From Daphnia pulex (taxonomy: Eukaryota > Arthropoda > Branchiopoda > Diplostraca > Daphniidae): 64,000 bases of DNA. Shown in pieces: positions 9,373 through 58,457 of this stretch. Below the pieces are notes generated by a model. That model did not search any database. It saw nothing but the letters and a program-made list of their open reading frames with translations, and was not told the origin of the DNA. How positions within the stretch are numbered: position 1 is the first letter of the stretch; each line of letters begins with the position of its first letter. Location: contig NC_060023.1 of the NCBI RefSeq assembly GCF_021134715.1, positions 1,302,001 through 1,366,000 on the forward strand, read 5' to 3'. The translations under genes and the position numbers were made by a program.

Positions 9373-9837
9373 TATTACAGATAATTGGATAATTGGTTAC
9401 CATCTAGGTAGTTGTTAATGTAGTTTGGTTTTACCTTATCATTATAAATATAAAAGCCGTTATTAAAAGTGGAAATTGCTATACATTCCACGTCTTTCTC
9501 TTGGTGTAAATTCTGGCAAGGCCATTCAAGATTCATCGGCGTTTATGTTCGTTGTTTGATAACTTTGATTAACCAGAGGGAACATTGAGGCAATATCGAC
9601 TACTGCGCTTACTTTTTTCGCTGAGCTGTGTTAGTCTTTTTTTTTTGTTTTTTTTTTTTCTGTTTTCCGAAATCTTGAATGACACATATCTCGAATCTGA
9701 ATTCTGATTATCATAATATTTCACATATCTGAAGTATTTTTGTTTCGCAACGTCATACAAATTGATCGCATCATTCGCATGTTCGGCTGTTCGCATCATT
9801 CGTCATTTCGTCTGCTGTGGCGTGGTTTGGTCTGATC

Positions 9838-23969: not shown

Positions 23970-25110
23970 TTAAACAGCAGCATAGCGTCGAGTCACCAGG
24001 AATCCAAGCTCCGGATAGTTCTTCATCAGGTTCTTCCATTCATTCGATTGACAAATGGTTTTGAAATTTCCAGCCAAAAAGTCAAGAGCTGCTTCTTGGA
24101 TTTTCTCCACCGAATGAAGATTTGCCCAGACCAACAAGTCAACGGCACTCTTCCGAACGCTTCTCAGCAGATAACGAACGCACTTCTCCTTCAGGTCCTC
24201 GATATCGTATTTGTCTGAAACTACGAACAGGGGTTGAGCGATGGCGTCCGTCAAAGGAGCCAAAGTCTGGCCGGAGTAAATGTAATGTAGCATCTCCTTG
24301 AAAATCTGTGGCCGGATGTCTTGGACGAAGACTTTGCCCGTCTCGGACTCTTGAAGTTTGTGGTAAAACATGGCAGAGAAAACGGGACTTCTGGCAGCCA
24401 AGATGGAAATATGACCACCGATTTTCTCCTCGTCTTCGAACAAGAATTCGACATCGCAGTTCGTTTGCTCGAAAAACACTTTCTCCAGTTGCTCGAGTGC
24501 AATCAGCTTGCCACGACAGAACTCCTTGGACTATAGATATAAATTATTAGTAAATACATTGCAACATTAAAACGGGATTGAAGCAAACACTATTCACACT
24601 TGAATTAAAATATTTTTTACCTTGGGAACTTTCACATTGTCCTTATCTTCGACTAATGGTGTTTGCTGGGTGTCCGTCAGTTGTTTTGCAAACTGCAACC
24701 AAAGGTGGAAGGTGGGGTTGCCAAAAGTTTCGATACTAAATTTTCCTGAAGTCCACTCTTCTAATCCAACAGCTTTTTCTAGATTTATTCTTCTTTCTTC
24801 ATCATCGTTGATTGTAACCCAAACAGAGAAAGGCAGATTATGGTCATAATTAAAGATGGCGTCTTTTCTTCCACTGACTAGAAATGTTGCTCGAGCATTC
24901 GATTAGCGACAAACGCAGTTCCATGCAAACAGTGTTAAAACTTAAAAAATAGAACTGAAAACCGTGAGTAAATGAGACTTTAAATGAAAAGTTGCTTCCT
25001 AGGGTTAGTTCGAGCATTTCATCGATTTCTCTGCTTGAAAATAGGAGGTTTTTTAATGTTTTCACGTCACACAAGTAACACCGTCTTTCTTTTTTTCAAC
25101 TTCGATCGAC
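23970..25110 (-). pseudogene. MATH-BTB-BACK (speckle-type POZ-like) gene with intact BTB half and broken MATH half
   Basis: Exon 2 (24530-23970) is open and encodes CRGKLIALEQLEKVFFEQ, then a BTB/POZ domain (TNCDVEFLFEDEEKIGGHIS, FVVSDKYDIEDLKEKCVRYL) and a BACK-like tail ending RRYAAV-stop. It would be a substrate adaptor for a Cullin-3 ubiquitin ligase, as known for the family. Exon 1 (about 25110-24621, donor gtaaaa) encodes the MATH part but is disrupted: a single-base loss turns TGG into TGA about 17 codons after the ATG, and a second shift near 24905 separates ELRLSL from SNARATFLVSGRKD. The partial copy at 938-1584 lacks the first lesion. I therefore call it a pseudogene, with the caveat that a downstream start could still express the BTB half. 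Confidence 0.7.
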
Positions 25111-28410: not shown

Positions 28411-28935
28411 TTAAAAATTTACATTCATCTCCGAATATATGTTAAAATGTGACAGCGTAGTTGGTAGTATGATATTCCGGCGCCTTGGAGGGGGGTAGTA
28501 CTTTGAAGCCTCGGTGTAGTATGCAGGCACGGGTACAGCGTAGGTTGTAGTATAACACTCGAGAGTCGTGGTGGTAATTTGATAAGAATAACTGCTATAC
28601 CCACGACACATCGGTACAGCTTTGGTTTGCCGTCCATTGCCATCCATTGACGACAGAACCGCCAGCAACAACACGATGCCTGAGTTATGGCTGCAAAAGT
28701 GCAAATACAGACATACATGATAGCCAAATACTTTCATTAACGACAGTTACTAGAAAAACGTTCATTTAAATTCAGAGTGAAGATTTAAATTATTTAACTT
28801 ACCCATAATTGCAATATTAAAAACCAGCGAGATTCAAGTGTGAATACACCTACTTTATTCATGCTGCTGCGTTGAAGCCGCTCACTCGACTGATTAGGGT
28901 CCCCTGCCATTGCCCTCACAATTTATACCTTTTCC
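28411..28935 (-). pseudogene. Tyr/Thr-rich repeat protein gene, copy 4
   Basis: TATAAAT (28927-28921) and TCAGT initiator (28893-28889) are followed by exon 1, a donor (gtaagt, near 28800) and a second exon from about 28693 with leader GIVLLLAVLSSM and units CYTTTYAVP, YYTEASKYY. Only a few repeats remain before a frame change. Promoter architecture is the same as copy 3, about 6 kb away. Confidence 0.6.
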
Positions 28936-32062: not shown

Positions 32063-32655
32063 ATGGTCTCCTCACGACGGATCACGTCCGTTTGGCTGTT
32101 GAATTTGTTTTGGGCTTTCGTGATGATTTTAGCGGCCGTCGAGGCTTCGAAAAACGGCGGCAAACGTGTCGGTTTCAAAAAGAACGTCAACACCGCCAAC
32201 CAGTGGTCCTGCAAACATCCTCAGCCGCGTTTAGTTTACATCAGTATAATTATCCCAAAAGTGAACTTTCTCCATTACAAGTTTTAATCAATGCAAATTT
32301 GGAATTATCAACAGGTCAAATGGAGGATTATGCGGCGCCCAATGTCGTCTACTTGCCATCGGCTTTGCTGGTCCACCGCTGCGACGATTCGGCCGGCTGT
32401 TGCCTGACGCCCGGCCAGACGTGCTCGTCGGTGGAGCACCTGGAGGAGTTGGTCAACTTTGTCGTTCACGAACATCACCACGCCGGCCACTCGGCCGGCC
32501 ACCATCACGGCAGCAGCGCCAATAAGAAACTCAACCGGAAGGCGACGGTGACGGTGCCGGTCAAGAATCACACGCAATGCGAGTGCGTCGGACGCAACAA
32601 CCTGAGGGCCAGGAGGTCGTCCTTGGTTCACCGAATCGACATGACAGTGCAATAA
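32063..32655 (+). CDS. PDGF/VEGF-like cystine-knot growth factor A
   Basis: Exons 32063-32243 and 32315-32655 (phase 1 junction, 71 bp intron), 173 residues. Signal peptide at residues 1-28 (VWLLNLFWAFVMILAAVEA). Knot landmarks in order: SCKHPQPRLVYI, VVYLPSALLVHRC, DSAGCC, GQTC, a His-rich insert (HHHAGHSAGHHH), then KNHTQCECVGR. The order and the CxC ending fit PDGF/VEGF-family ligands, which signal through receptor tyrosine kinases. The position of the second conserved cysteine (six before HRC) is Ala. Longest loop of the five cluster members. Confidence 0.8.
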
Positions 32656-33189
32656 TTATATATCTTATTGAAATGAGTTGTTTTTCGTTGGAATCAAAAG
32701 AATTCTACGTACCGCTGTGCCTCAAAAATGGATTTTCTACAGCTGGATCAAATTCCGGCGGATGGATTTTTTTTAATTCTTCAAATAACCTAACGAGACC
32801 CGAAATTTGAATTTCAGTTAGGGCCAAATTTTTGTGAATTTGATTTTTTTTAATACGTGTATACGCTATAGTTTGGTGATTTTCTGACCCGCTTGATTAT
32901 TAAAATCTATCTATACTAATAATGAATTTTAAATAACCCCGCCCGCCATATGACTCTCGCATGATGTTATACCTCTGTACACAAGTGAACAATTTCAATG
33001 AGAGTTTTATAACTATGGAAAACGAACGATAATATCTTTTTAAATATACAACGCATAAAGTGAAACAAAAATTTGAATACCGTTTTCTTATATATTTTCT
33101 CCTTTTATTTACACACCCGGGAGCGACAAATCGGCGCTTGGCAACAGCTCCGCCGTCTTATTTCGCCGTGATGACCCAAATATTGCTCG

Positions 33190-33197
33190 TATAAATA
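33190..33197 (+). promoter_or_regulatory. TATA box ahead of two micro-ORFs
   Basis: TATAAATA followed by a purine-rich stretch. No annotated-size gene follows within 1.3 kb; the only candidates are a 21-codon frame from 33262 and the 38-residue frame at 33391. Confidence 0.45.
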
Positions 33198-33390
33198 GAG
33201 AGAGAGAAAAAAACAGAAGAGATAATAGTCGCTTGATTACGTGACAGTGTGTCGTACAGAAATGATCGTAAACCAAAAAACGGGTGGGCGGACGTGCTTG
33301 CCAATGATTCCCGGAACCATATCTTAAACTACATATATCCTATCAGTAGCCTATAATAAAAAATAACATCAAACACTTTTATATTTGAAA

Positions 33391-33507
33391 ATGCGACACT
33401 TTTCTCAAGGGCAGCAGCAGCAGCAGCCAGCTTCTATCAAACTCACATGGATTACATTAGCGTCTGTTTTTCTTGTAACTGCCGTTGTTATGATATCAGC
33501 CGCATAA
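33391..33507 (+). CDS. Candidate 38-residue tail-anchored micropeptide
   Basis: ATG at 33391 and TAA at 33507. The peptide starts MRHFSQGQQQQQPASIK and ends in one hydrophobic segment of about 19 residues (TWITLASVFLVTAVVMISA). A short polar head plus single C-terminal membrane span is the layout of regulatory membrane micropeptides. A 5' TATA box at 33190 makes transcription plausible. Could equally be chance; no homology is claimed. Confidence 0.35.
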   Translation: MRHFSQGQQQQQPASIKLTWITLASVFLVTAVVMISAA

Positions 33508-34592
33508 GGGGGCGGTGTCTGTTGATTGGTTGGGATATGATGAATCGCCATCGCTACTGGCCATTTTGCATTTCTCGTGAAAATGTTTATAACAAAAGTC
33601 CCGCGGAGATGCCGACTATATCATCGGTACAGACGCATTCATCTTCTACAAACTGTCGAAAAAGATTTGTCTCTATACAACCCCCCTAAAAACATTTCGC
33701 TAATAATATTATAGTAGCCAATACATCCTGCATTGGAAATAACACTCTGGGGCTTTTCACGTTTCATTTCAGACGCCAACAAAAAAAACCCACGCATTTG
33801 CATCGGGAATTCCCAAAACTAAAAAAAGAAAATGATAAACCTGAAGGGAAAATAATCAATTTCTGCACTCAACATTTCAAAGAGTCTGGTTCTGCGGATG
33901 ATGGATGACTATAGCACGAATAGCTATACTTTTATCATTCGATGGCAAAAAAAAATTAAAAATTTCGATCGTATAAGATATATCTAGCGAAGAAGAAGAA
34001 GACGACCGGTTTTGATTCTTCTTGCACGAGCACGACAGTATGGCGACATCGAGATTTTGCACACGTCATTTCACGCAGCAGCACGCAGATTTATGGGACT
34101 TAAATGTCCACTTAACAGCCAGAGTATGTCCAACCACCCGCTGGACAGCCTTTAGAAACATTTTGCGGATGTCGAGGAATCTGTCACGTAAAACTAAACT
34201 TGTTTTAAAAAACATACACAGATTCATTGGCGGATTAAACCCGTGGGTGGAATATAAGGCCCAGGTTGTATATCAATCACAATTTTAAATGTGACTTTAT
34301 AGCCGAAATTCCCCATCAAGAAGATAAGCTTGTGGGCGAATCGGGCGGATGAGAATTATTGTTATAGTTGAGAGAAAGTATAAATTTCGCGCGCGTCCTT
34401 AAAAGACTCGGGGTATTACAATTATTCCGGCGATCCGGCTGCTGCTGCTATTCACGCGTGTACGTCATCAACCTAAAATATGTTAGAGGTCGTTTGGTTG
34501 GTTGAGGTTGCGAAAGACGCCGGTGGTTTTTCTTTTTCTTTCTGTTTCCATATGGCCAGCAAAATGACGACTAGATGATTTTTTGGCTTAAA

Positions 34593-34626
34593 TATAAAGC
34601 CCGACGTTCACCTGGAGACCATCAGT
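34593..34626 (+). promoter_or_regulatory. TATA-initiator core promoter of growth factor B
   Basis: tataaa at 34593-34598 and tcagt at 34622-34626, a canonical spacing of about 30 bp. It predicts a 5' leader of about 89 nt before the ATG at 34713. Confidence 0.7.
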
Positions 34627-34712
34627 CGCTTACCACCTCGCCACCTGTTAACACATCTGCAAACAGCAGCATTTAATTTCGTTTCGCCAAAAAATTTGAT
34701 TATATAGAAAGG

Positions 34713-35269
34713 ATGATGGTTAGCTCTTCCGCCTTTCTGATGGTCGTCCTCTGTCTGGCTGCTGGCGGCGGATTCAACACGCTCGAAGCCAAGTCGTTGG
34801 TGACGTTCAAAAGAAACATTGACCAGGTGTTGAAGGAGTGGAATTGCAACAAACCGCAAGAGAGACTCGTCTATTTGGGTATTTATTCAATTTGACATTT
34901 TTTTTTCGTCATTCAAATTCAAATTTAAATTTTATTTTATTTATTTATTAATTATTCATTTATCCATTTTAATATTAATTATTATTAATTAATTATTGAA
35001 TTTCAATTTGAATTATTTTTTTTTAAACAGAGGATGAATATGTGGAATACAATCCGGCCGCCATTTACCTGCCTCACGCGGCCGTCGTTCAGCGCTGTGA
35101 AAAGTCCATCGGCTGCTGTAAAACCGGTCACGTGTGCACGTCGGCCGAGGAAGAGGAGATGACCTTTATCGTCGAAGAGTTTCTACGAGGAAAGAAAATG
35201 AAGAAAGAAGTCGTCCTCTCCAATCACCTGCGCTGCGAGTGTCAGAGCGTCACCCGGGAGCGCAAATAA
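34713..35269 (+). CDS. PDGF/VEGF-like cystine-knot growth factor B
   Basis: Exons 34713-34878 and 35031-35269 (phase 1 junction), 134 residues, the shortest of the group. Signal peptide at about residues 1-26 (FLMVVLCLAAGG). Knot landmarks: NCNKPQERLVYL, AAIYLPHAAVVQRC, SIGCC, GHVC, LRCECQ. Ala replaces the second PDGF cysteine. Same exon boundary as factor A, so the two are tandem duplicates on one strand. TATA and initiator are well placed. Confidence 0.8.
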
Positions 35270-35284
35270 AAATATAGAATTCCG

Positions 35285-37000
35285 GCCGGAATGATTCGAA
35301 TTATTTTTTTTTAAGATATAGGAGTCTAAAACATTATAACATGCGCAGTTCCTATATACTATACAGCCGTCTACGATGCTATGTATATCACGTTTTTAGC
35401 TAGTCTCTCTATATTTTTCTATAATTATACCAATACAGTATTTTCTGCAATTCAATTCAATTACAATTAATTTCTGCGTTATTCAATTTTAAACATTCGC
35501 TTGCGGTTGGCAACTGGCCATTTGAAATTGAAACAGGTCGGACGATTTCCTTGTACGGACGCGATATAATGGATAGGATAAAAAGAAATTGAACTTTTGC
35601 GCTTGACAGCAGACGCCGATGAAATTTATGCAAACTAGTCCCGCGTGCAGACGCTCTCACCGACAACTTGTATAGCAGCGGGCCATTCCGCGATTGACAC
35701 AGCAGCACGGCATTTTTCTTCTTCTTTTTTCCACAAAATCATTAAATCCATTTCGTTCGGAATATCCTAAATCGTTCAAATATAGGAGCATCTGACGTTG
35801 TTTTTCTCGGAATAGCGTCGAGGTTAACCGCAGCAGATAAAGTGCTGTGTGCCCGCCAGCACTATAGCATCGGGATAGAAAACTTGGCAACAGATGATGG
35901 CCGCCAGCAGTAGCGGATGAATACGCAATGAGAATTGGCCATTCAAGAGTCCACATCATTTACACACAACCGTCTTGCGGTCATGCCGCGTTTAATCTTT
36001 TTCGCCTTTTGCGAATTCGTTTAAAAAAAACCGCAGACCCAAAATTGAACTTTTTTTCGGGGAGGAAACGCGGGAGTCAAATAGTTTACGATATTATTAT
36101 GGACGTGATTTTCTCTTCTGACCTTCTCGGCATCTATTTGATTTTATTCATTTCGTACATTTAGAGAGAGAAGCCCATCATCATTTGAAGACTAAACTTT
36201 CCAGTTGGCAAATGAAATTCTTGTATTATATCTGTGGCTAATTTTTGTAACACGAACGCCAAAACCGAATTGTCTTTGATTATATAGGATTGCGGTTTGA
36301 TTTTATATCGAGCCCAAAATGGCTCAGCTATTTTCTTTCACTTTTTTTTTTTTGGGGGGGGGGGAATAGAAGAAGGGGCGGTGCCGATTACATATGCAAA
36401 TGAATTTGAATGCCAAGTCAATAAATTGAAGTAGCCAAGGAAGCCGATAGCCTTTGATATCGTCTAGGGGAACCTCTAGAATTTCAATTCAATCTTGTCC
36501 AGACACACACGTCAACCGGCCAGTCACACAAGGCCATAGAGTGCACGGAGACACATCACAGATGAGAGATAAAAGAGAAGCTGACAAACTGTGTGTGCCG
36601 ATTGACCTCCTTCTATTTCTCTATATAACCCGATCCAAATGAGTATGTAAATCCAGTGATGCTGGTGAAACGACAGATGGAATAATGAAAGTTTTTAAAA
36701 AAGATATGCGCTGTCCATCACCAGGACTAATCTATATATTGATTGGTTATTTTTGAGCATATGTGAGTATATAATAGAGCAAAATCAGCACCTATGGCAA
36801 CATCCTATAAAAGAGAAAACAGGCTCATCAGGACGGAGAGGTTACATAATATAAACGTGAATAAATATTTGGTCGGTGTTATATAATTAATTCTACGAGA
36901 CAATGATTTTTGTTTCTTGGAATATCACAAATTATGTCAGAAATAAATTATCCCACATGGCTGCTCCACACTCACGATAGTCGGGATCAAATTCGGGATT
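35285..37000. other. Intergenic stretch
   Basis: No supported gene. A TATA-like cctataaaag near 36804 and an initiator-like tcagga about 25 bp on precede only a 26-codon frame at 36903. A homopolymer run (T then G) lies at 36340-36363. Confidence 0.35.
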
Positions 37001-37012
37001 CCTTTTTGATGA

Positions 37013-37585
37013 TTAGATTCTTAGATCGATTTTCCCGACGCATTCGCAACGAGTGTGATTGGTCAAACTAATCATCAGTTTCTTTTCTTTCTTCTGTTTG
37101 CTGTTAATGTTGCGCTTATTATTATTGTTGGCTGCTGCTGGATTATTGACGCTTCCGGAAGTGCTGACGGCCTTGACGGCGAACTGGATTTTCTCTTCCG
37201 CCGACTCGACAGACCTGCACACCTGTCCGGGTACCTTGCAGCATCCGGTCGATTGGTCGCACTGGTGGATGACCAACGCCGGAGGAAAGTAAATCGCATT
37301 AGGAGCTGCATACTCATCTAGATTTTCTAAATTATAATCAATTTAAAAAATAAGGTTTAAAAAACCACAAGGAAAAACAATTAAATTTGAATTTGAATTT
37401 ATTATACCGATATGAATGACCCGCGGTTGCGGTTGACTGCACGTCCATTCGTCGAAAGTTTTCACGTTCTTTTTAAACGGAATCGTTTTCACCACTGCCG
37501 AACTAACCAGAGGCGCCAACAGCATCGCCACCCACAGGCAACAACTCAGCATCTTTTGTCCAATTTTAGCCATCTTATAACACAC
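37013..37585 (-). CDS. PDGF/VEGF-like cystine-knot growth factor C
   Basis: Exons 37585-37408 and 37317-37013 (phase 1), 160 residues; a start four codons later is equally possible. Signal peptide LSCCLWVAMLLAPLVSSA. Landmarks: TCSQPQPRVIHI, AIYFPPALVIHQC, STGCC, GQVC, an Asn/Lys-rich insert (NNPAAANNNNKRN), then NHTRCECVGK. Second PDGF cysteine replaced by Ala. TATA (TATAAAAA, 37734-37727) lies about 145 bp upstream. Opposite strand to factors A and B. Confidence 0.8.
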
Positions 37586-37739
37586 TTAAAAAATTCAGCG
37601 CGAAAATTTAAACAACAAAACTTTTATCCAAATAAGGCGAAAAACAAAATTCCAGCGCGGCTGAACGTGTGTGCGAAATGATGGGCGCTAGAAAAGTGAC
37701 TACCGTTTTCTTTCATTTGTCATTCCTTTTTATATTGTG

Positions 37740-39060
37740 GTGTCTAGTGATGACGTTGTTTTTAAAAAACAAAGTGATGTACCAATAACTGAGGGACGAC
37801 ATTACCCCACATCCAAACGTGAAAGAAGAGAAAGAAGAAAGAAGAAGAAAGATTTTTTGATTTCCCTTTCACCGTTAGTGGTCCGTGACGTCAAAGGATA
37901 ACCGGAATTGTGAATGGGACCGGAACCCCAAGTCTATAATATCCTTTTTCGTGAGCGCAAATACACCAAGGTCGACCAACCCAGCCGACAGCAGCGATAC
38001 GAAATTTTCCTTTTTGAAAGATAAAATTCAGCTTCCGTTGCGCATAAAATTCATTTAATAGACGACCAGAAAGCAGGTTATTCCATTCACGATAACTGTG
38101 AGATGTGGTTAGATGACATTTTGAAATGGCTATATTATAGGATTTGATTCGAGATAAAATAATCTAACTTCCGTTTTGAATATCAATCAAGTGACGAAAG
38201 TGTGAAAACTAAGTCTTGTTGGCCTTCAACCAGGATTTTTGATAAATATTTTTGGCGCGTGTGTATTGTTGCGTGTTATGAGTGATCTAGCCGGAAGTGG
38301 AATAATAATCAGTTGATGTCTAATTTATTCTGCAAACCGGTTGGGTTAGTTTTCTATTATATTTTTATCAAATTGCACGCAAATCTATCTCGTGGGTGTG
38401 TCTAAAGTCTAAACATTGTGGCGCGCTAATGTTCTCGTTTTCAATTTCAAGTTTAATTGGATCGGAGAGTTGCGCTATTCCGGAATTCAACCATGTTTGA
38501 ATTTTAATTTTTAAAAAACATATTTGCCATAACAGGTGCGCGGTGAGTTTTTTGCACCTGAGGACACACACACGCCACTTGTAATAAAACAGATTGCACC
38601 ACAACCAGACATATCCAGACAGACGAACTAGCGCTTAAATACCCTCGGGCGATTTTGGCGAAAAATGCTGAGACATTGTCTAAATTATTTCACAACTCGG
38701 CTCATTTGCATATCACTCATGTAAATTGGCCACGAATAACTCGACGGAAAATTGCTCCCGTTTTTAATCTGAACGAGTAGATCTTGCATGTTCAGTATCT
38801 ATTTAATTTGTTATAAATTTAGTGATGACTCAACAGGAATGTTGGCCAGGGAATATCCCAGAGCACAAAGAACATGTTTTGCTATTTTTAACATAACAAA
38901 CAAACCACCAATAACAATATAACACGACGCCGAGTGTATTTCTCCCTTTTAATTCGCATTAATTTATAGTGTAGTTTATAAAAGAATAATGTTAGTTGTA
39001 TCTACATTTCCAAGGATACTCTCAAGTTTGTTTCGCGGTTTCCCATAGGTGCGCATTTAT
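37740..39060. other. Intergenic stretch
   Basis: A minus-strand frame from 38613 (MSGCGAICFITSG) follows a TATTTAAG near 38640, but is short and unrecognised. Nothing else supported. Confidence 0.35.
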
Positions 39061-39070
39061 GTTGCCACGT

Positions 39071-39357
39071 TCATTTTGAATAAACGGACGACGTGAAGGA
39101 CCTGCCAAGATTTATTGCCAGCAAAAAGAAAAGAAATATTTACACTGTTTATTCTTATACACGCGGAAATGAGGATGACTTGCGTCAGTAGAATTTGTTT
39201 AAAATTGCACAACAGAATAAGATGCAACTACTTACCGGAATGGACAACATTTGGCAGGCTCCGACGTGACTGGCGGTTTTGGCGTTCCAGCTTTCCAAAT
39301 GATGAAGATGGCCGTGGCTTCGATCGATATCAATTCATCTTCTACCGAATTATTCAT
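39071..39357 (-). CDS. Small FTG-tail protein 1 (RSFTSSVYSK tail)
   Basis: Exon 1 39357-39236 (MNNSVEDELISIEATAIFII then WKAG, ending CCPFR) joins exon 2 39101-39071 in phase 2, giving 50 residues ending RSFTSSVYSK-stop. TATAAAAG at 39481-39474 with a TCAGT initiator about 35 bp on. It shares with its neighbours the hydrophobic motif before WK and the tiny phase-2 second exon starting RSFT. The tail is diverged after FT. No signal peptide, no recognised domain. Confidence 0.6.
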
Positions 39358-40197
39358 CTTGATTAAACGTAGCTATAGAAAATATGAAATGAAATATCCG
39401 AGCGAATAATACGACTGATCAGTTTCGACCGTTCAACGAGACTGACCTGGTTTAGACACAATCTCCCAGATGTCTTTTATATTCTAATATTTTTTTTGTG
39501 CTCTCAAAACTTAGATTCGATTTTGTTCTGGGAACTCGGAAATGTAGCCAAGGACTAGCCGACTAGAAATTATTACGTACGGTATATACCAGCACAAGGA
39601 AAAATAATGGCGAAAGTGAAATCTATGTAAAAGAATTGAGGTTAAGCGACCCATATCACATAGGAAAACTCGTGCTGGCTAGTATAGTAGAACGTGCACG
39701 TAGGACACGTCAAATACCGAGAAATATTTGTTGTTGAGAAAATAACTGATATGTTATGTAGGATATACCCGTCGGTGTTGAGAGCTGGTGTTGATTAAAT
39801 AACGAGAATTTCGTCATAAGAAGTTTGACGGTTTTTTTGGCGAAGGTCTTGTGCTTTGTCGGAATCAGAATAGACATATTTCTGCTTACGAGAATAACCC
39901 AGCACAGAAAATGGCAGGTGATAGTATGGCAAGATTCCAATATTTTTGGCACAAATATAATTGGACAACGAATTAAGAACCTACGCAACAAACACTTGCA
40001 ATAACCACCGTCGTTTCAAATTAGATCTCGCCCTATTAAATTTGCAATCCGGTTCTCAATCCCAATTGTTTTTTATTTATTTATTTTTTTCGGTGTGTCT
40101 ATTATTCATCAAACAAAAGTAAAATAACAAAATGTCGAGTATATTTTCATTTTTATAGCCAACAGGAATATATCGAATAAAAACCTGTTGACAATTT

Positions 40198-40482
40198 TTA
40201 TAAAATTCCAGTGAAAGGCCTCCTATAGATCAATGGCGAATAAAAAACAATCAATGTTAAATTTTACAATGAGGAAACTATGTCAAGCAAAATATAAAAC
40301 GTATACCGAGAGAGAGAATGGGACAGACACATTGACGGTCGGCCCTGTTTGCTGGTGTGTCTGTCCGGCTTAGTCGTCCATCCAGTGAAGAAATTCTTGA
40401 AATTGTTGTTGGACGAGTTGTTGTGGTTGTTCTTCTTGACGTCGTCATCTCGGCTTCTGTTTCGACAACAATTCAACATCAT
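40198..40482 (-). CDS. Small FTG-tail protein 2 (RPFTGIL tail)
   Basis: Exon 1 40482-40307 (MMLNCCRNRSRDDDVKKNN start, LSHSLSR end) joins 25-nt exon 2 40222-40198 in phase 2; 66 residues ending RRPFTGIL-stop. ATAAAAGG box at 40580-40573. Asn/Lys/Ser-rich and basic. Contains NFFTGW in place of the VWK motif of the relatives. Exon 1 ends like protein 4 (CLSHSLS). Confidence 0.65.
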
Positions 40483-41538
40483 CTTGTGTTGTTGTTGTTG
40501 TTGTTGTTGGTTGGACCCTGTCGGGTTCAGAGGACTAGAGAGAATGGCTTGTTGTCAGAAATCTGAGCTGCCCTTTTATTGATTTCATTAATGAACATAT
40601 CCGAAACTATTACGTAGTTGTATTGACCTGTCTGTGTGTAATCCTAGACGACAAATTCAAGGTCCAGTCGAAACCAGAACGTCTCGGAAGTTCAACGGAA
40701 GTATACCGGAGATAACCAATTAATATCAATTAGACTTGTACAACAATGGCTGGATCGATTAATATAAACTGCCTCAAACCGGTCGCTTCATGTGACGCAA
40801 TTTGGAATCTACCCTCCAAGAAAAAAATAAAAAAAAGTCTTCAATACAATTTGTTTTAATTCCTAATGACAAAGATTTTAGTTTTAATTTAAAAGGAAAA
40901 TAAAAACAACGTCTGAGATATAACAAACAAAAGATGCAGTCGGATGCTTTCAGCGATGCGTAAAGCTGATGGATAGGCAGACGGAAGTGTCCGCCCGTCG
41001 GATAGATTTTCTAATTTGGCGCTTGTCTGCTATTATTAGACCGCCCTACATTCTCCAAGAAAGAACCGTTGGAATTTTAGGATTATAAAATCAAAAGAAA
41101 ATTAAATTCATGCATCGATCTCTACATCAAACCATGTAAACGTTTTGCTATTATATAGCAACCTGATTTGATGACCGACATCCTGTATTTCGAAACTAAG
41201 GATAGTGGCGGGGATTTTTGATGTTGAAATATAAAACAATTAGCCTTTATACGCGGGGCAAATGAACTGCTGTCGTATAAAATAACCAAATTTCCGTTGA
41301 CGCAACACGCCAATGTGAAAAAGCGACCAGCGGGTTCAACGCTATTTGCATTCGTTAGATTGTAATGGTGAATGGCGAAACCAGAAATTTAGAAAGTTTC
41401 CACATTATTTATTAGTTATAGCAAAAATAATATTTTCTTACACAGTACACAATTGAAATTACAATTTTTAAAAAAGGCTGAAAATCATTTCCGGGCCGGT
41501 TCGAGTCTGAAGATAATTTTAAAATAATCCGGAAGTGT

Positions 41539-41837
41539 TCAATTCCACAATGACAAAGACGCAATCCAAATTCTGTAAATTAATAGCAAAGAATTTAAAT
41601 GAATTACAAGACAAATTCAATTTATTTAAATGATTTCACTTACTGATAAAACATGACTGGAGATGACGCAACAATTAAGCCAATCGGTATTTTAAGCTTT
41701 TCCACTTTCCAGACTATAAAAACTGCAGTGGCAACGATCCGGTGACTTTTGACGCTGCCGGCGGATGTCGAACTGATTTTCTTCTTAGACTCATCCGCCG
41801 CCGCCGCCTCCCGTCTTGCGCTACTGGGTGAATCCAT
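41539..41837 (-). CDS. Small FTG-tail family protein 3, tail exon uncertain
   Basis: Exon 1 41837-41644 encodes an Ala/Ser/Lys-rich N-terminus, then HRIVATAVFIVWKVEK and a hydrophobic IPIGLIVASSPVMFY, and ends in phase 2 at a good gtaagt. TATATAAATA lies near 41936-41947. The nearest acceptor (41572) gives the tail IWIASLSLWN-stop (75 residues), which lacks the FTG motif. No better tail exon was found nearby, so either this copy lost it or the true exon is elsewhere. Confidence 0.5.
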
Positions 41838-42475
41838 TTTGGCGGAATGATATAATATTCAGACAGCACGTCAGCACGACTAATCGAGTGAGCCAGCAAC
41901 GAGAGTAGTTTGGTTACTAAACCCGGATCCTCTCTGATATTTATATACGGTCCAATTTGCATATAACGTCGTCATTTGCATATGTGTATCAGCGCGTACC
42001 AGGAGGAGGAGAAAGAATTTTGCTCAAGGTTCTCCCGCTCTCTAACCGGAGCAAATACTAAGTATAATACTACGTGAATAAATACTGTTGACTAAAATAT
42101 TTGTTTAAAAAAAGGGTGTGTCTCCCTCTGGGTCTAGGAAATTGTTTGACGTCAACCAAAATTGGAGGTCACCCAAATTTAAAACTAGATCAAACTAGTT
42201 TTTTTATTTAAATAAGAAAATTGGAATCAGCTGCAGGGTCGATTATATACAGCGTGATTTTTTGTTAAAAGACCTTAGGGCGTTCTTGGAATCGACCAAA
42301 AATAAATAAAAAAACTGCACGCAAATCCTATCGTCCAGTTTCGGGGAAATGGTGAACAAGTTTTAGCGAATAAGTAAAGTTGCACTACATGCTAGAGGTT
42401 ATCGATTCAAGGACCAGCAGTAGCTAGAGACATTTATGTGAGGTATGTGAGGTTGGATTGAATGTCAAATGGCGT

Positions 42476-43166
42476 TCAGAATAGACCGGTGAATGGTTTC
42501 CTAAAAATCAAATAAAAACAGTTAATGTTTTATTGGATCGGTCATTGCACGCAGCGCTCGGGGGCTGTCCATTTAGCATTCAGGGGGGGGGGGTTAGAAA
42601 ATAATGAAAGAGGGGGGGTGACTATAAATTGAAAATAAAAGAAATTTTATTCAAAAATGAGAGGAAGGGTCGGAAAAAAAGTAACTTTGTTAAAAAGAGG
42701 AGGGGGGACCTTTCGTGACAATGGCCGACGTGATTCTTAACAATGGGTTGGGATAGAAAAATAAGAAACATAAGAAAGGGGGTTAGGTAAGAAAACGAAA
42801 AAAAGGGGGGGTTAACGAAAAAAAAGTTCGTTCAAAGGGGGAGGGTGGGGATACTTTTCGTGACTAGGAGGAGAGGTGACCAAAAATGTGATGCTTGTTT
42901 GGACAGCACCGGGCAAGAATTCGGTCGTGATTTTGACCTTGTAAACGAATAAATAATCTCAAAACTTACTGAGAAAGTGAGTGAGAGAGGCACCAGGGGG
43001 TCGACTGCTGCTGCTGCTGATGATGTTTATTATTATTTTTCTCTCTGTCAGATTCGAACTTTTTCCAAATCTTGAAAGTGGCGTAAATCGTGAGCAACTG
43101 ACGAGTTTTGTCATCCTGCGAATCCTTTGTCTTGGTATTTCCTTTGTTGTTGCGAGAATAATCCAT
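42476..43166 (-). CDS. Small FTG-tail protein 4 (KPFTGLF tail)
   Basis: Exon 1 43166-42970 (MDYSRNNKGN; IYATFKIWKKF; polyGln; CLSHSLS end) and 25-nt exon 2 42500-42476 in phase 2, separated by a 469 bp intron that contains the G-rich tract. 73 residues ending QKPFTGLF-stop. TATATAAAAG at 43280-43271. The intron is long for this gene set. Confidence 0.65.
42575..42875. repeat. G-rich degenerate tandem tract inside intron of small gene 4
   Basis: Runs of 6-10 G recur about every 35-60 bp together with a cttttcgtgac-like segment (about 42710 and 42857). On the transcribed (minus) strand these are C-runs; the coding-opposite strand could form G-quadruplexes. Confidence 0.5.
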
Positions 43167-43886
43167 TTATTTTCACAGTTATATAACGATGGGAAAATGG
43201 ATGGAAACAAACGAACTGGCCGGTTGCAAAGACTCGAAGCGAATGGCTTGATTTTAGAAATTCGAGCCAACTTTTATATATTTATGTACACGTACGAATT
43301 TGGCAATGACGAGTTCAGTTCCTGCATGGATAGACGTGTGATTATATAGCGCGGCTGGGAATAGGAAGGAGACCAAGGTCCACCATTATTATATTGAGTC
43401 AGAACTTTTTCCCACCACCCAGCATAATGTATATCAATTAATCAATCTTGGAAATTTGCCGGAAAGTGAACGGGATTCCCCATTATTATTATTTGTTCAC
43501 CAAGGAAACACGTGCCATTTGGTGGGTTTCCCCAGGTTTCCCCCTTTCATGTGACAATAAATAGACACGACCTCGACCTAATAGAAAATTGGCACGATTC
43601 GTTTTATCTTCTTTTAGCGAAAGGATTAATCGCCTCCAGCTCTAAGACATTTTTATTGCGATTTGCTACCGAATTCCGCATAATTAAAAGAATTTAAAAG
43701 ATTTGATATTTTTAGTTTGTATTCGCATTTTAAAAATTTGTTTGAACAAAAGATATTGATGCAATCGCTTGACAATTCGGGTGATGTAATAAAATTTATT
43801 CGTGTGTTTCATATTAATTAATTGAGTTGAATCAGAGTATTTGCTATAGTGCTGTGGTAACGACGTCCATTATTATTGACCATCTT

Positions 43887-44155
43887 TCAGAATAGGCCAG
43901 TGAAGGACCTGCTGTTTAAAACAAAAATTAAAATTCACATTCTTTAATATTTAAATTTAGCCGTGAAACTTACTGAGAAAGTGAACTGGAGAAAATGTTT
44001 TTGGACTGGGCGGATGAGCTGCTGCTGGTCCTGTCTGATGATTTCGACTTATTGTCGGGTGATTTCCAGACGATGTAAACGGACGAAGTTTTAACCTGAT
44101 TGCTATTACTGGACGAATTCTTCTTGGCGTCATCACGTTTTGAATTATTCTCCAT
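43887..44155 (-). CDS. Small FTG-tail protein 5 (RSFTGLF tail)
   Basis: Exon 1 44155-43974 (MENNSKRDDAKKNSSSNSN; KTSSVYIVWK; Ser-rich; IFSSSLS end) and 25-nt exon 2 43911-43887 in phase 2, 62 bp intron; 68 residues ending HRSFTGLF-stop. TATAAATAAG at 44235-44226. Its tail is identical in the last seven residues to gene 8 on the other strand 4.7 kb away. Confidence 0.65.
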
Positions 44156-44682
44156 TTTCTTGACAGACCGTTTACTATGCAGCACTCGTCAAAATGCTGT
44201 AATAAATCAAATGCGGACCCTTCCCCTTATTTATATCTCGTCCAATATTCCCGTTGCTTCCGAGAGAGTGAGGGGAACCAAAAAATAAACTTTCAAGGTT
44301 TTCGGCCACAGGTAGTACATTATATACCAATAGGCTACACACTTAATACGTCTCGAAAGTTCTTTTATATTAGATGATGGCGCATGACGGAAATTGATTG
44401 GAGGTCAGCATCATACGTACGCAACACACCAAGAATACCGGTTAATACCGGTAAGCCCAATTTGACTACGTTTATACTTTGTTATATAGTAATGACCTTG
44501 AAAATAGTTTTTAGTGAATATTTGTGATCAGTTTTTATCAAGTTGTGAAGCGATAAAGAAGCTGTACAAATTTTTACGTAAGTGAATAGAAAAGTGCACG
44601 TCATCAATCATCAAATCTGTGCGAAATAAAAGAGCCATTATTCAGCACCGGATGAATGTAATGGATTTATTTATCTCTATAT

Positions 44683-44937
44683 CTAACCTTTTGGATGAAA
44701 AATATTATTGAGCGACAGATTTAGCAAATGGTATACATGGAAATCCTTTGATATAAATTCGCCTTCAGCAGCCACTCGATCGTATATATTTTGCATATCA
44801 TTTGAATATTTCCCGAAAATAGTCAAGTACATCACAACCTCAATTTTTTGACGGGCAGACAGGGAGACTGGCGGCCGTCTGCTGTGCTGTGTACTTGTGT
44901 TTGACGGGCTGCAGAAATGGCGGTTGAAATCTGACAC
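44683..44937 (-). CDS. Possible small gene behind a TATA box
   Basis: TATATAAG at 45103-45096 is followed by a CAA/CCA-rich leader and overlapping frames. The 84-residue frame starting MSDFNRHFCS contains VVMYLTIFGKY, loosely like the VFIVWK motif of the small-gene family, and ends LSLNNIFHPKG-stop. No FTG tail exon was found. Which frame is used is uncertain. Confidence 0.3.
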   Translation of the reverse strand: MSDFNRHFCSPSNTSTQHSRRPPVSLSARQKIEVVMYLTIFGKYSNDMQNIYDRVAAEGEFISKDFHVYHLLNLSLNNIFHPKG

Positions 44938-45235
44938 TTTTTTGGCATCGCCGTAAAATGAGAAACTGTGATTTCGTTATCCCCTTGACACAAACGAATA
45001 ATACAAGAAACACGATCCACCACCACCACCACCAACAACAACAACACCTACCGTCCTTATTAGACACATTCGAAAGCTTGCAACAGTTATTTCCACTTAT
45101 ATATAGACATGTTGTCCATCCAAAAAAGAACCGGCTCTTTCAATTTAATAAAACCGTGAGTGGGAAAAACACTTTCCAAAAAGTTGAGATTATATTCGCT
45201 GGACCGAACGCGTGCGTAGTTTCAATTGCCGCGGC

Positions 45236-45475
45236 CTATTTCCTATCTGATGACACCTGATGCGGGAAATAAGTATATAAAATCCAAGAATTATTTTTTA
45301 GATTGAAAATGCCATTAAGAGAGTGACTCGGCGAGTTCTTTTGAAGCGATGCCGAAATTCGATAGGAATCGAGTGAGGTACATCTACGAGTAGAACTATG
45401 CTCGACGACCAACACTTCATTTGCATACGGAACTTTTTTAGCGTCGCTTGACACTTGGCAGTCGTCAATCAACAC
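45236..45475 (-). CDS. Possible small gene, unassigned
   Basis: 79-residue minus-strand frame (MLIDDCQVSSDAKKVPYANE start) with PSHSLNGIFNLKNN, which faintly echoes the SHSLS...FTGIL ends of neighbouring small genes. No clear TATA box or second exon. Weak candidate. Confidence 0.25.
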   Translation of the reverse strand: MLIDDCQVSSDAKKVPYANEVLVVEHSSTRRCTSLDSYRISASLQKNSPSHSLNGIFNLKNNSWILYTYFPHQVSSDRK

Positions 45476-45823
45476 ATCAGAATTAACGAACGAAATTTTC
45501 GGGATATCTTAAAAAAAAAATTAAAATCCAATTGTCACGAATTTGAATATTCAATTCAATTGCGACGTCCAATCAAAACCGGTCGGACGTGATATTTTTT
45601 TTTCTCTCACCAAACACTCCAGACAATTGAAAAATGAAATTAATAAAAATGTTCCAGGTCTATATTTTTTTTTCTCCCAACTTGATTTGCATATTATAAA
45701 TATGAATATTTAATTTTTGATGATATATTCAAATTAATGGCCATTAAATGTTTTTATTTTTTTTTCGAGTCTCAGGTACGTGATTTTTTTCAGAGTTTCA
45801 CTGCAGTTGCATGGGATGACACG

Positions 45824-46622
45824 TCACTCGTCTGGAATGTCGTTCAAAGAGGAGGACGGCAATCCCGTTGAAGGGCCGGCCGTTCGGGACCTGATGCTGA
45901 CGCACCGACATCTGGTGTGATTTCTCAACGTGACCGACGTCAACCGCGGCTTGGACGGCGTGAAGAGGTTCTTGACGTGGAAAGTGACAACTTGTTCTTC
46001 ACTCTCGACCGAGGCGCACTCGTGAGCGGGAGCGTGACAGTAGCCGACTGAACGATCGCAGCGATGAATCAGCAGAGCCGCAGGCAGGAATATGGCATTG
46101 GGAATGCGGTACTCCTCCAGGTCATCTTATTGAATTTAAAAAATAATTAATCATTATTTCTAATCATTAATGATAATTAAATTATTCAACAATCAACAAT
46201 TTGTAATAAATTATTTAATTATTTAAAATCTTGGGTGATTTTAGATCTTGAATTAATTTTAATGTTTAAATTAAATTTTTTTCATCTTGAATAAAAGAAA
46301 AAAACCTTTGGAAAATAATTAACAGCAAATTTAATTTATAAAACAATTAATAATCTCGGATGAGTTTATAGCTAAATTTTAATTCGAATAATTGTGTTTT
46401 ACCGATGTGAATGAATCTGGGCTGTGGATGTCTACAGGCGCACTTGACGGAAGCTTTTAAATTGGTCAAAAACGGAACGTGTTTGATCCTTTGGTCTGTC
46501 ACATTGACAGACTCAGAATAAGTCAACAAATGATGAAGTAACAAAATGGCCAGTATTGACCAACAGTTTCTCCGAGACTCTCCCGTCATAGCGACTGGTC
46601 TTTTAAGTGTCTGATGCGTCAA
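45824..46622 (-). CDS. PDGF/VEGF-like cystine-knot growth factor D, lacking both interchain cysteines
   Basis: Exons 46622-46403 and 46125-45824 (phase 1), 173 residues; a start at the second Met (46589) would place the signal peptide CWSILAILLLHHLLTYSES better. Landmarks: KCACRHPQPRFIHI, AIFLPAALLIHRC, SVGYC where the others have GCC, HEC, NHTRCRCVS. Besides Ala at cysteine II, cysteine IV is Tyr, so both residues that form the interchain bridges in PDGF are gone while the intrachain knot cysteines remain. Ser/Pro-rich C-terminal extension. TATAAAAA at 46763-46756. Confidence 0.75.
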
Positions 46623-46639
46623 TAATCAAATATTGAATA

Positions 46640-48465
46640 AGCATCAATACAAATATCAGTTTGCTTATATTTTCAACTCTCCAGCGTATATGAAAACGAC
46701 CGAGTCTCAGAATTTCATCAAAACGACACGTTCGTGAGTTGTTGGTTTCTCTCGATTTTTATACGAAACCCCAGCAGAGCTCGAATTACCCCGGATATAC
46801 AGAAATCTACTTCCTTCCGGAAACTCTCTTCGATCCGTATATGAGGAAATGAAATGTTTTGTCGTCACATTTTTGTTCATCGTGACGTGCTGTAATCAAT
46901 TTCCGGTTTCTTTTTTCTTTTTCTTTCACGCCAAACGCTTTCCCGGGCAACATTCGTTACTAGGAAATAGAAATAAGAAAGTAGAAACCGTATATGTCTC
47001 TAGTCGTTTATTTTCGCGTGATGTCGTGTTAGAATCGGACAGGTGTATATACAGGAGAAAGACAGAACAATTCCCGCGGGATTGTCGTTGATCACGCTGA
47101 CAGGCCAAAGGAGAAAACCAACCAACCAAACACTATCAAAAAGAGACAAGATCAATTTCCATTCGATCCGCCGACAGATTTTTTCTTTCGGAGAAATTCA
47201 CGCGGAATAATATCGTGAATCACCAAACATTTGTACAAGCTCCACGCATAATCATATCCCGACGGCCATATTTGGTGGAAATATCCCCCCGATGACGGAA
47301 AACAAAAACCCACAAATCTCAAATTGATGAATTGAATCGAGAAAAAGGGAAGAAATAATTCCCCGATGAATAACTTGTTTTTTTTTTTAATTTCGCGCGC
47401 TATAGTACCATGTTAAAAAGTAGGTCAAGCCACAGGGGGGAACCTTGTGTCGTGAAAACAAAAGAGACACGCCTATTTGTGTCGACGTCACGTGTGCACA
47501 GCTGACGTAACAACGACCTCTACAAAATCTCACGGGCATCAACCGACAAAAATAGTGACGTTGTTGAACGATCATCTATAAAGTCCCTGAAACACTTTTT
47601 ATAATATGCAAATCTGTAAAAGAAAAAAGGAAGGTTCGTACATCTATAAAATAGCCGGCGGGAATATTCAAAACAAGCAGTAATTATTCTATGGGTGTGT
47701 GTGGGTAGGTAGTAGAGAGATTCGTGATTGCCTAGGGCTGCGTGTATAACAACACATTTCCCGATTTATACACACGGTGCTGGATTCGTTTTATTAGCGA
47801 AGCCAGAAGAGGATATACCACCACCAAACCGTATAGATGTAATAATAATAATAACTTTTATACCAGCTGCATTTGAAACGAAGAAGAATATCGCCGATCC
47901 TTTTATGGTTGTACGGCAGCTAAGGAGCGTTCACAGCACTCCTTATACATAAAAATCTTCTTTTTGTTTTCTCTATTCTTTTTACATTTAACTTGAAAAA
48001 TTATTCAGAACTTCGCAGGTGGGTTTCCCCATTAAAAGAAAGATTTCGTGTTATTGAAGTGGTTTGGACCGTAAGAGAAAATAACGAGCCAGGTGTGTGT
48101 TGGGGTATCACGTTCCACCATTTATGAAAAATATCGAAATTTTATATTTTTGATTTTCTATTATTTAGCTGAGTCCATTCATATCGATGCTGCACAATAA
48201 GGCGCCTCCCTTTATTTCCTTATTTAGTCGAACTAAAAGGGAAAGAGAAAACGTGATGGTTTCACGCCCCAGGGTCTAAACGACCCGGTGGGTTTTCTCT
48301 CTTCTGTGACTCACGGCCAGCAAACAATTAAAAAGAAAAAAACCCGTTTCTTTATTCTATTCTTTTTATTTTTATATTTTTAAACCTCGGTGGGAATTTC
48401 CATTTTGGCGAAGGAAAAAATTCCCCGACCCCCGAAAGTGAACGACATTTTTTCGCACGTGAGTT
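46640..48465. other. Intergenic stretch
   Basis: No supported gene. A TATA-like ctataaaatag near 47643 leads to no recognisable frame. Confidence 0.35.
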
Positions 48466-48623
48466 CGTGAATATATAAAAAGGGCTGTTCGTTCACGGTG
48501 TACCAATCATTCCCTCGCCGTCTATCCACTGGAACAGTTACAGCAATCACACCGATGTGCAAAATTTGTTATACATTCGTTCAATCAAAAGGGAATTAAT
48601 TTATTCAAATTTAACAAAACAAA

Positions 48624-48922
48624 ATGGATTCCGTTAGCAATGCCAGCAGCCAAGAGCATTTCTCAAAGACCGGCTGTCTGAAACTATTCAACATTTTCAT
48701 CTATTTCAAATTGAGAAAATCGACCAAAACCATCAGCGCTAAAAAACCCAAATGTTTTTCCTACAATTTATTGCAGTAAGTTAATAGTATTGTCGTGATT
48801 GAATTAATATTGTTCGATTTTGGGTTTTTTTCGAACACGTGTACCTACCCCGAGGCCATGACATTAATTCTTTGTTGATTTGCATATTTATAAACAGGAG
48901 GTCGTTCACTGGTCTTTTCTGA
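48624..48922 (+). CDS. Small FTG-tail protein 8 (RSFTGLF tail)
   Basis: Exon 1 48624-48775 (MDSVSNASSQEHFSKTGCLK, LFNIFIYFKLRK, KPKCFSYNLL) and 25-nt exon 2 48898-48922 in phase 2 across a 122 bp intron; 58 residues ending QRSFTGLF-stop. TATATAAAAA at 48472-48481. The only copy of the family on the plus strand, between growth factors D and E. Confidence 0.65.
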
Positions 48923-48924
48923 AA

Positions 48925-49485
48925 GTGGACCAAAACTTTTTCTGCAGCAACAAAACTACGTCGTACCTTGAAGATTTTATTATTTGAATTTCCACGTCCG
49001 TGACGTGAATATTTCTGTAATTATTGATCTTGTCAAATCCCGCTCATTTGCATACACAATTAATTGACTAATAAAATGATTTATTCCAAAACACGTGATT
49101 ATTTCAACGAATGCGCTCATCAGTTGACACTCTGCGGGATTACAATTAAAATACAATAATAATCATGCAAAATAAAAAGCTGAATTATAAAAAAAAATAA
49201 AAATTAATTTACATGACATTTAATTTTTATTTAATTATTATTTTTTTTTTAAACATCCAGTCGGCAGAAATAAAAAAAAAGGACGGACATTGACTTTATT
49301 TTGTGGGTCCTGTCACACACACAAACTTCAACCGTCGTATCAAACGCGATAAAAGTCCAACACAATTTGAAATAAACACACATGTCCGGAGGGGGGTCAA
49401 TAGGGCGTGGTTAAAGTAAAGATTGAATTTCGTTTGGCGAAAAAAAAAATTACATATACAAGAAAAATGCCAGAGGCAATACAAA
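48925..49485. other. Intergenic stretch
   Basis: AT-rich, no gene seen. Confidence 0.35.
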
Positions 49486-49488
49486 TTT

Positions 49489-50066
49489 TCAACGTCTCGG
49501 GACGTCGTTGATATCGGAACAAGTGCACTGGGTGTGATTGACGAATTCCAGCGATTTGAAAAGCGCGCGGTTGGCGGTGGATGTTCCATCTGCGACTGCG
49601 ACCGGCTGCCTGGGGCGATTGGGGTGAACGAAGAAGACGACAGTGACGACAGACTCGACTAGCGGACCGCATTGTTTACGCCGGTCCAGGCAACATCCGC
49701 CGGAAGGATCGCACCGGTGCAGAACCGTCGCTGACGGATGGTACGTCAAAGTGGCATCCACTTCCGGATGATCTTCTGTCAATTTTTATTTTTAAAACTT
49801 TTAAAATTGAAATTCTAATAGAACCGAAAAATGAATTGAAACCAAATTGAGAATTTACCGACGTAGAAAACGCGCGGACGCGGAATTCCGCACATTCCGA
49901 ATGTCTGGAGGCGTTGGAAATTGTCGCGGAAGAGTCGGCCGTTGCCGACGCCGGTCGATTCCGGCGTCGCCACGACGACCGATGCTGGGATTGGCGACAA
50001 AACGGCCAAACCGGTCGCTATCCACAGAAAAACGTCGAAGAAAAATAAACGCCGGTGGTGAAACAT
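49489..50066 (-). CDS. PDGF/VEGF-like cystine-knot growth factor E
   Basis: Exons 50066-49859 and 49775-49489 (phase 1), 164 residues. Signal peptide LFFFDVFLWIATGLAVLSP. Landmarks: MCGIPRPRVFYV, PSATVLHRC, SGGCC, KQC, VNHTQCTCSD. Cysteine II is Ala, cysteine IV present, final motif CTC. An upstream in-frame Met (50189) exists, but the signal peptide favours 50066. No TATA box found; a cagtcagtc lies about 60 bp upstream. Confidence 0.8.
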
Positions 50067-57498: not shown

Positions 57499-58457
57499 TT
57501 AGTAGACTCGATGTATTTGGTGATGGCTCCGGTCGGCGGATGACACTCCGGCGGAAGCGGCGGAATTTGCGCTATTGGAATGACCTCCTCCGGCAGCATT
57601 CGCGACGCTTCCGGCGCCGGAAGCGATGGCGTGATGATGAGATGAATAAGATTGAATCAGCTGATGGTACATGGCCGGATGATAATGCTGGAAAGCCTGG
57701 CCGAAAAAATCCGCACTCATCGCCTGATGTTGTTGTTGTTGTTGTTGTTGTTGTTGAAGTTGTTGAGGCCATTTCATCTCGGGAGGTGATCCGCTCGATT
57801 CCGGCGGGGCTAATACCGACGACGACTGATGACGCAACTGGTCGTCGCTTAATAACATTTCTCCTCTGATCTGCTGCGGTGGCTGATCTTCACTTCCGGC
57901 CGGATGACCTTCTTTCCGCTGTTTAGTCCGCCGATTTTGGTACCAGACTTTGATCTGATTAATCATTTAAGACAATTAAATTTTGAAAATGAAGTGACTG
58001 CCATGGGGGGAATTTACTTGGGTTTCAGAGAGGCCTAGACGTCTGGCCAGCAAAGTCCTTTGTTCGCCCACCAGGTACGGATGAGAGCAGAAAGTCGTTT
58101 CTAGGGCATCCAGCTGCCATTTGGCGAAGGCCGTCCGGCTGCGTTTGGGACGATCCAAATCCAGCGCTTTGGGCAACAACAGAATTTTCTCCAATCCTTT
58201 CGAGTCTAATCACCCACAAGTTCAACGACATTGAATTTTCAAAAATGAACAAAGTTCGACATTGAAATGAATCTCATCCGTCAAACAATCTGACAGTCTA
58301 ACAAGCGCAGCTCGTTAACCACCAGCCATTTACTCTAACCTTTAACGACGACTGTCTGAACGTAATCTGGCAATTTGGCGTCTTGACGTCGCTGATGCTG
58401 ATGTCGATGATGATGGCGGCTCTCCATCACGTTCTTAGCGCATCCGTAAGTATCCAT
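57499..58457 (-). CDS. ANTP-class homeobox transcription factor (VAX/EMX-like)
   Basis: Exons 58457-58340, 58205-58018 and 57954-57499 (introns 134 and 63 bp), 253 residues. His/Gln/Arg-rich N-terminus (SRHHHRHQHQRRQD), then a homeodomain at about residues 58-117: RPKRSRTAFAKWQLDALE, HPYLVGEQRTLLARRLGL, SETQ then IKVWYQNRRTKQRKE. The C-terminal part has polyGln (LQQQQQQQQQHQ) and a His/Ser/Ala-rich tail. The intron after SETQ falls in helix 3, as in many ANTP-class genes. RRTKQ(R/K)K and the YLVG...R-LA...LSETQ pattern point to VAX/EMX/NOT relatives, but divergence prevents a firm name. Homeodomain position 49, nearly always Phe, is Tyr here. Confidence 0.85.

Follow-up and report, generated by a model that had tools for sequence, protein, structure and literature searches.

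A clustered family of tiny two-exon genes sharing a C-terminal peptide in Daphnia pulex

What keeps a short C-terminal peptide constant on small proteins whose bodies diverge, and what might such proteins do? A 64,000-nucleotide stretch of the Daphnia pulex genome (C7:1302001-1366000, here referred to as the window) raises this question, because it carries a group of tiny two-exon genes, most of which end in almost the same peptide. Lineage-restricted genes for small proteins are common, but as a rule they offer no way into function. Here the C-terminal peptide, constant while the bodies diverge, provides a bait for partner finding, and the family tests how a short motif persists while its surroundings drift. 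We named the genes by their window position in kb and the copy upstream of the window gU, rebuilt the models from the raw sequence (Table 1) and searched the whole genome (133 Mb in 13 contigs).

The intron-split C-terminal peptide

The five two-exon models proposed in an earlier note on this DNA (g39, g40, g42, g44 and g48) all close with an in-frame stop codon at precisely the junctions given there, and have GT-AG introns of 62–469 nucleotides (nt), phase-2 junctions and first exons of 122–197 nt. The very short second exon described there (25–31 nt) was recovered as well, being 31 nt long in g39 and 25 nt long in g40, g42, g44 and g48; the tails read as had been stated. The five genes look real, and the observation itself is confirmed. 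Proteins across the family have 43–73 amino acids, with a net charge of 0 in g39 and of +6 to +8 in g40, g42, g44, g48 and gU, that is, in five of the six spliced models. The acceptor site has the form NAGNAG in g40, g44, g48 and gU but not in g42 and g39, so those four may be spliced with or without R as the first residue of the tail. The 469-nt intron of g42 contains a G-rich low-complexity stretch (window 42580-42840).

The constant peptide is longer than had been noted, namely SHSLSx[RK][SP]FTG[LI][FL]-COOH, and it spans the intron, the SHSLS part being encoded by exon 1. This part is exact in gU, g40, g42 and a Daphnia magna protein described below (P0005), and reads SSSLS in g44 and SYNLL in g48; FTG[LI][FL] followed by a stop is present in g40, g42, g44, g48, gU and P0005. 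We scanned the genome for the tail exon, written as AG, one base, an R/K-type codon, an S/P codon, FTG, two hydrophobic codons and T-purine-purine, with at most one mismatch and with AGY serine codons omitted unless counted as a mismatch. As a result, nine matches were obtained, and six with a reversed-pattern control. Five of the nine encode FTG[LI][FL]-stop and all of these lie within C7:1301586-1350922, one stretch of about 49–50 kb, at 40.2, 42.5, 43.9 and 48.9 kb of the window and in gU. The remaining four are near-identical places on C5, which end in TGG without a stop and do not encode the peptide. A plain codon string of the FTGLF type, taken without splice or stop context, is not rare (149 genome matches versus 105 in the control), so the splice and stop context matters. 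We reject a dispersed repeat or a chance origin for the tail, given the restriction of the FTG[LI][FL]-stop exons to the cluster. Two near-matches to the SHSLS donor, on C8 and C10, have no tail exon in about 1.5 kb of downstream sequence, and a whole-genome protein search gave no convincing further copies, the best off-cluster E values being 0.227 for g44, 4.87 for g42 and 1.33 for P0005, with none for g48.

Codon differences within the tail are mostly silent. Across the final eight codons in five copies (10 dependent pairs, with g39 left out), the pooled values for silent (pS) and replacement (pN) change were 0.58 and 0.15, which supports the earlier proposal of selection on the C-terminal peptide, with an ascertainment bias from recognising copies by that peptide. 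Two non-overlapping, hand-picked pairs, gU–g44 and g42–g48, gave a Fisher p of 3e-4 on rounded counts.

Kinship of the copies and their relatives

It had been claimed that the first exons share only a hydrophobic patch. This proved wrong, as many of the bodies and some of the core promoters are related. We compared seven first exons and the D. magna protein, with the tail exon removed, in 28 pairs against residue shuffles (uncorrected). The alignments reached p ≤ 0.01 in 19 of the 28 pairs, D. magna included, and 18 pairs still had p ≤ 0.05 (uncorrected) when the SHSLS part was removed as well. Exon 1 of g39 is related to those of g41, g42, g44, gU and D. magna (z 4.9–6.0), and a DD.KKN stretch is common to g40 and g44. 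Among the core promoters, the g40–g42 pair shows clear homology (score 58, 0 of 300 shuffles), while a weaker likeness (p 0.007–0.02) was found for g41–g44, g41–g42, g39–g41 and g42–g48, and the other 10 of 15 pairs had p > 0.03. Tandem duplication is the simplest reading of this kinship in first exons and promoters. Since the tail of g39 is divergent, no tail was found for g41 and the 3' part of g41 is not conserved, the family looks like one of birth and death, in which g41 may be a tail-less copy or a decaying gene. The TATA box attributed to each gene holds for four of the five, with TATAWAAR or TATAAATA at most 160 nt from the ATG, and fails for g40, which has only CAATAAAA; TATA-like boxes thus stand near the start of g39, g42, g44 and g48, and also of g41.

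Searches of 5.8 billion proteins, in which a shared five-residue word was required, found seven relatives in total (P0001–P0007). P0001 and P0002 are 97% and 86% identical to the first exon of g42, P0003 and P0004 are relatives of the g48 first exon, and P0006 and P0007 are relatives of the g41 first exon whose frame stops right after WKVEKA, from which we take the 3' part of g41 to be unconserved. These six are open frames on contigs, so that no tail is visible in them. Thirteen pattern stretches in viral contigs were also considered as relatives of the g42 first exon, and none proved to be one.

The seventh relative, P0005, is the D. magna hypothetical protein OUZ56_015611. It is 53–55% identical to g44, its closest copy (55% over 91% of g44), but is annotated as 46 residues longer at the N-terminus, perhaps through a gene-model artefact. 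Its C-terminus is FSHSLSHRSFTGLF, the last 13 residues (SHSLSHRSFTGLF) are identical to those of gU, and the body motif QVKTSS...VW is kept. The tail is therefore retained in D. magna at the protein level. P0005 was seen as a protein, and its H before RSFTGLF is what splicing at the first of two NAGNAG acceptors would produce.

The family is unrecognised, as the earlier note had said: none of five family proteins exceeded a cut-off in Pfam, and none of six did so in NCBIfam, a library for bacteria and archaea. Two Pfam candidates were rejected, namely Bac_globin for g40 (19.5 bits, E = 0.0012, below the cut-off of 21) and DUF6272 for P0005 (13.6 bits, below cut-off). A sequence search for relatives of solved structure gave no matches, and a literature search of partial coverage found no mention of an FTGLF/SFTGLF motif. 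Because of the five-residue-word requirement, and because tiny genes are often unannotated, the Daphnia-only status of the family is not proven.

Possible roles of the encoded proteins

We lean slightly towards a tandem birth-and-death Daphnia family of small proteins that are mostly basic and are probably disordered and not secreted, and that would act within the cell as adaptors or inhibitors with a docking C-terminus. This reading is supported by the cluster-only tail exons, the closed frames, the silent-site excess, the tail of P0005 and the first-exon homology. Inspection by eye found no signal peptide in the six spliced models and g41. Moreover, as the last dozen residues are the most constant and the body is polar and possibly disordered, a docking peptide at the free end is the simplest presentation; single-sequence structure prediction for OUZ56_015611 gave a predicted local distance difference test score (pLDDT) of about 45–55 from residue 51, with nearly all of the family part unstructured. 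The C-terminal peptide would be a short linear motif that docks a single conserved partner inside the cell. The hydrophobic-WK patch may serve as another contact, and specificity or turnover might be tuned by the diverging bodies. Such proteins, made on demand from TATA promoters, would serve as small adaptors or competitive inhibitors.

Several points weigh against this reading. The gene models come from DNA sequence and not from transcripts, and the full intron-split tail is missing from g39, which has lost GLF and continues from RSFT into SSVYSK, as well as from g41, where it was sought and none was found. Nine of the 28 first-exon pairs, for example g42–g44 and g40–g41, lack significance at p ≤ 0.01. 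Pairs involving g40 have pN of 0.22–0.25, and since copies were recognised by the peptide and g39 was left out, pN is lowered, so that constraint is supported and not measured. The OUZ56_015611 model has a mean pLDDT of 59, weak evidence for disorder, and contains one helix (residues 20–51), which falls mostly in the annotated N-terminal extension. Finally, docking by one conserved partner is something that we infer, and the partner is hypothetical.

Among known systems, the insect Bearded and E(spl) families consist of small proteins that work inside the cell, are encoded in clusters and carry short motifs of fixed sequence, such as a WRPW tail in the basic helix-loop-helix members. The Daphnia family is alike in clustering, small size and a short fixed motif, but none of their motifs was seen in it by eye. 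The usual PDZ classes do not accommodate a C-terminal -TGLF. The mille-pattes/tarsal-less/Pri system likewise consists of tiny proteins with a constant short C-terminal peptide, and several LDPTGxY peptides are encoded there as tandem small open reading frames on one RNA, in a pathway of Ubr3 binding and Shavenbaby processing. The Pri-type frames of this genome end in LDPTGLY-stop, and have TGL, Y/F and a stop in common with FTGLF-stop. That the family works like Pri peptides is nevertheless hardly credible to us: the resemblance is brief and was noticed post hoc, the family tails lack the defining LDP, LDPTGxY-stop occurs on C10 only (four matches at two loci) and is not matched by [RK][SP]FTG[LI][FL], and the copies are two-exon genes rather than tandem frames on one RNA. 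We know of no intron-split tail in Pri. The two C10 loci (L038 at 4.40 Mb and L040 at 8.92 Mb) present a Pri-type locus with two LDPTGLY peptides twice, in opposite orientation, by duplication or an assembly effect.

The high net charge of five of the six spliced models would suit antimicrobial peptides of the cationic kind, other secreted peptides or precursors that mature to a short peptide, but with no signal peptide seen by eye, a neutral g39 and a constant part that is a short tail instead of a cysteine framework, such a role appears very unlikely. It is more improbable still that these are not genes, only chance open frames or decaying copies. The models are known from DNA, no tail was located for g41, whose relatives diverge beyond WKVEK, and gU has no clear promoter, all of which would agree with that view; the clustering of five tail exons that stay in frame, conservation across species and the excess of silent change speak against it.

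The promoters suggest two further possibilities. NF-kappaB, IRF-like factors and AP-1 might switch on g42, g48 and perhaps other copies, which would then be immune-inducible effectors or feedback regulators acting intracellularly on that signalling. We scanned 350-base stretches for four motif types (kappaB, IRF-like, CACGTG and AP-1), chosen after viewing the promoters from 19 scanned, and only the upstream stretches of g42 and g48 hold at least three types in 124 kb. All four coincide there, within 120 bases upstream of g42 and 155 bases upstream of g48, and two of the three occurrences of GAAAGTGAAC in the 124 kb fall in these two promoters. In a non-random comparison set of 26 other loci (79.7 kb), 3 of 7075 stretches have three types and none has four. 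However, a blind shared-word test does not favour g42–g48 (p about 0.1 for words of 8 and 9, and outside the best eight pairs for words of 7), its best pair being g40–g44 (p 0.016 at words of 7, uncorrected for 55 pairs), and the set is absent from the remaining four tiny-gene promoters, among which that of g39 has one IRF-like site. We regard an immune role as doubtful, and rate it above a hormonal one. In the latter, F-T-G-L-F would be an F-x-x-L-F motif, a class that binds the AF-2 (activation function 2) grooves of receptors, and the proteins would be nuclear-receptor modulators in a hormone feedback loop through ACCTTGA promoter elements, which we take to be FTZ-F1/ERR-like. FxxLF occurs in four of the six spliced models and in the D. 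magna protein. ACCTTGA/G (YCAAGGTY) lies upstream of g40, g41, g42 and g44, four of six tiny-gene promoters with an expectation of 0.085 per promoter, each with a same-orientation copy 145–214 nt before the ATG. Still, the glycine and the immediate C-terminus poorly suit a helix, g40 (FTGIL) and g39 do not fit FxxLF, and the element was picked out post hoc and could reflect shared ancestry; it also stands upstream of one of five VEGF genes, and the stricter YCAAGGYCR occurs in one of six tiny-gene promoters. We consider the hormonal role unlikely. Both groups of elements, kappaB/IRF/AP-1-like and ACCTTGA, are post hoc and are leads, not results. Rather improbable, too, is a more specific version of the docking reading, in which the copies would be inducible, Daphnia-specific intracellular microproteins with one free C-terminal docking peptide from a 25-nt exon, competing for a single signalling partner of the NF-kappaB/IRF or nuclear-receptor type, with the first tail residue optionally trimmed through NAGNAG.

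Neighbouring genes and other features of the window

Table 1. Positions of the tiny genes, of motifs upstream of g42 and g48, and of the PDGF/VEGF-like neighbours (window coordinates)
Feature	Position	Strand	Description	Basis
g39	exon 1 39236-39357, exon 2 39071-39101	-	50 amino acids; ATAIFIIWK patch; divergent tail RSFTSSVYSK	spliced model
g40	exon 1 40307-40482, exon 2 40198-40222	-	66 amino acids; end SHSLSRRPFTGIL; tail RPFTGIL	spliced model
g41	41640..41837	-	first exon with VFIVWK; search for a tail exon negative	
g42	exon 1 42970-43166, exon 2 42476-42500	-	73 amino acids; end CLSHSLSQKPFTGLF; tail KPFTGLF	spliced model
g44	exon 1 43974-44155, exon 2 43887-43911	-	68 amino acids; end SSSLSHRSFTGLF; tail RSFTGLF	spliced model
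g48	exon 1 48624-48775, exon 2 48898-48922	+	58 amino acids; end CFSYNLLQRSFTGLF; tail RSFTGLF	spliced model
gU	-626 to -388 (0.4 kb before window)	+	MQVLAKFAVWK...CRSHSLSHRSFTGLF; start and promoter uncertain	
Upstream of g42	43395..43514		AP-1-like TGAGTCA (43395), GAAAGTGAAC (43462), kappaB-like GGGATTCCCC (43472), CACGTG (43509)	
Upstream of g48	48307..48461		AP-1-like TGACTCA (48307), kappaB-like GGGAATTTCC (48392), GAAAGTGAAC (48434), CACGTG (48456)	
PDGF/VEGF-like gene 1	32063..32655	+	PF00341 over cut-off	start by eye
PDGF/VEGF-like gene 2	34713..35269	+	PF00341 over cut-off at 35051-35242	ends by eye
PDGF/VEGF-like gene 3	37013..37573	-	PF00341 below 27-bit cut-off: 26.8 bits as protein, 21.3 in genome search	
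PDGF/VEGF-like gene 4	45824..46589	-	PF00341 over cut-off	
PDGF/VEGF-like gene 5	49489..50066	-	PF00341 over cut-off	

The tiny genes had been described as interleaved with growth-factor genes. This holds only in part: g48 lies between PDGF/VEGF genes 4 and 5, and g39 to g44 form one block between genes 3 and 4. Five of the six tiny first exons in the window are thus in one block, from which one PDGF/VEGF gene separates g48, and gU is about 32 kb away from the first PDGF/VEGF gene. The neighbours themselves make up a tandem cluster of five two-exon genes on both strands (window 32063-50066), with domains at 32.3, 35.05, 37.0, 45.9 and 49.5 kb, four of which exceed the Pfam threshold of 27 bits when the genome is searched. 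Elsewhere in the genome, PF00341 is over cut-off at three more places (C7 at 11.85 Mb, C11 and C3) and weaker at two (C5 and C1). The likeness to these growth factors is one of neighbouring tandem clusters only; the family sequence is unrelated, with the cystine-knot domain PF00341 in none of the five scanned proteins. None of the four motif types of g42 and g48 was found within 500 bases of the five VEGF starts, that of gene 2 being placed 1–2 nt off, so shared control through these motifs is not supported. Work on Pasteuria resistance in D. magna names VEGF-receptor-like genes (PMC8557431, PMC9894429) and also VEGF-like genes (PMC8557431).

Several other features were observed in the window. 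The same long peptide is encoded at 9803-10084 (-) and 11187-11444 (+), in opposite orientation and about 1.1 kb apart, an apparent inverted repeat and perhaps a mobile element. Pieces resembling MATH and BTB domains by eye are present at 935-1465 (+) and 23970-24902 (-), with a similar segment at both. Repetitive frames with units such as TEAPKYYTTKAPEYY occupy 19946-20816, 22174-22455 and 28411-28746 (-), and a frame at 57499-57966 (-) contains IKVWYQNRRTKQRK, which to the eye is the recognition helix of a homeodomain.

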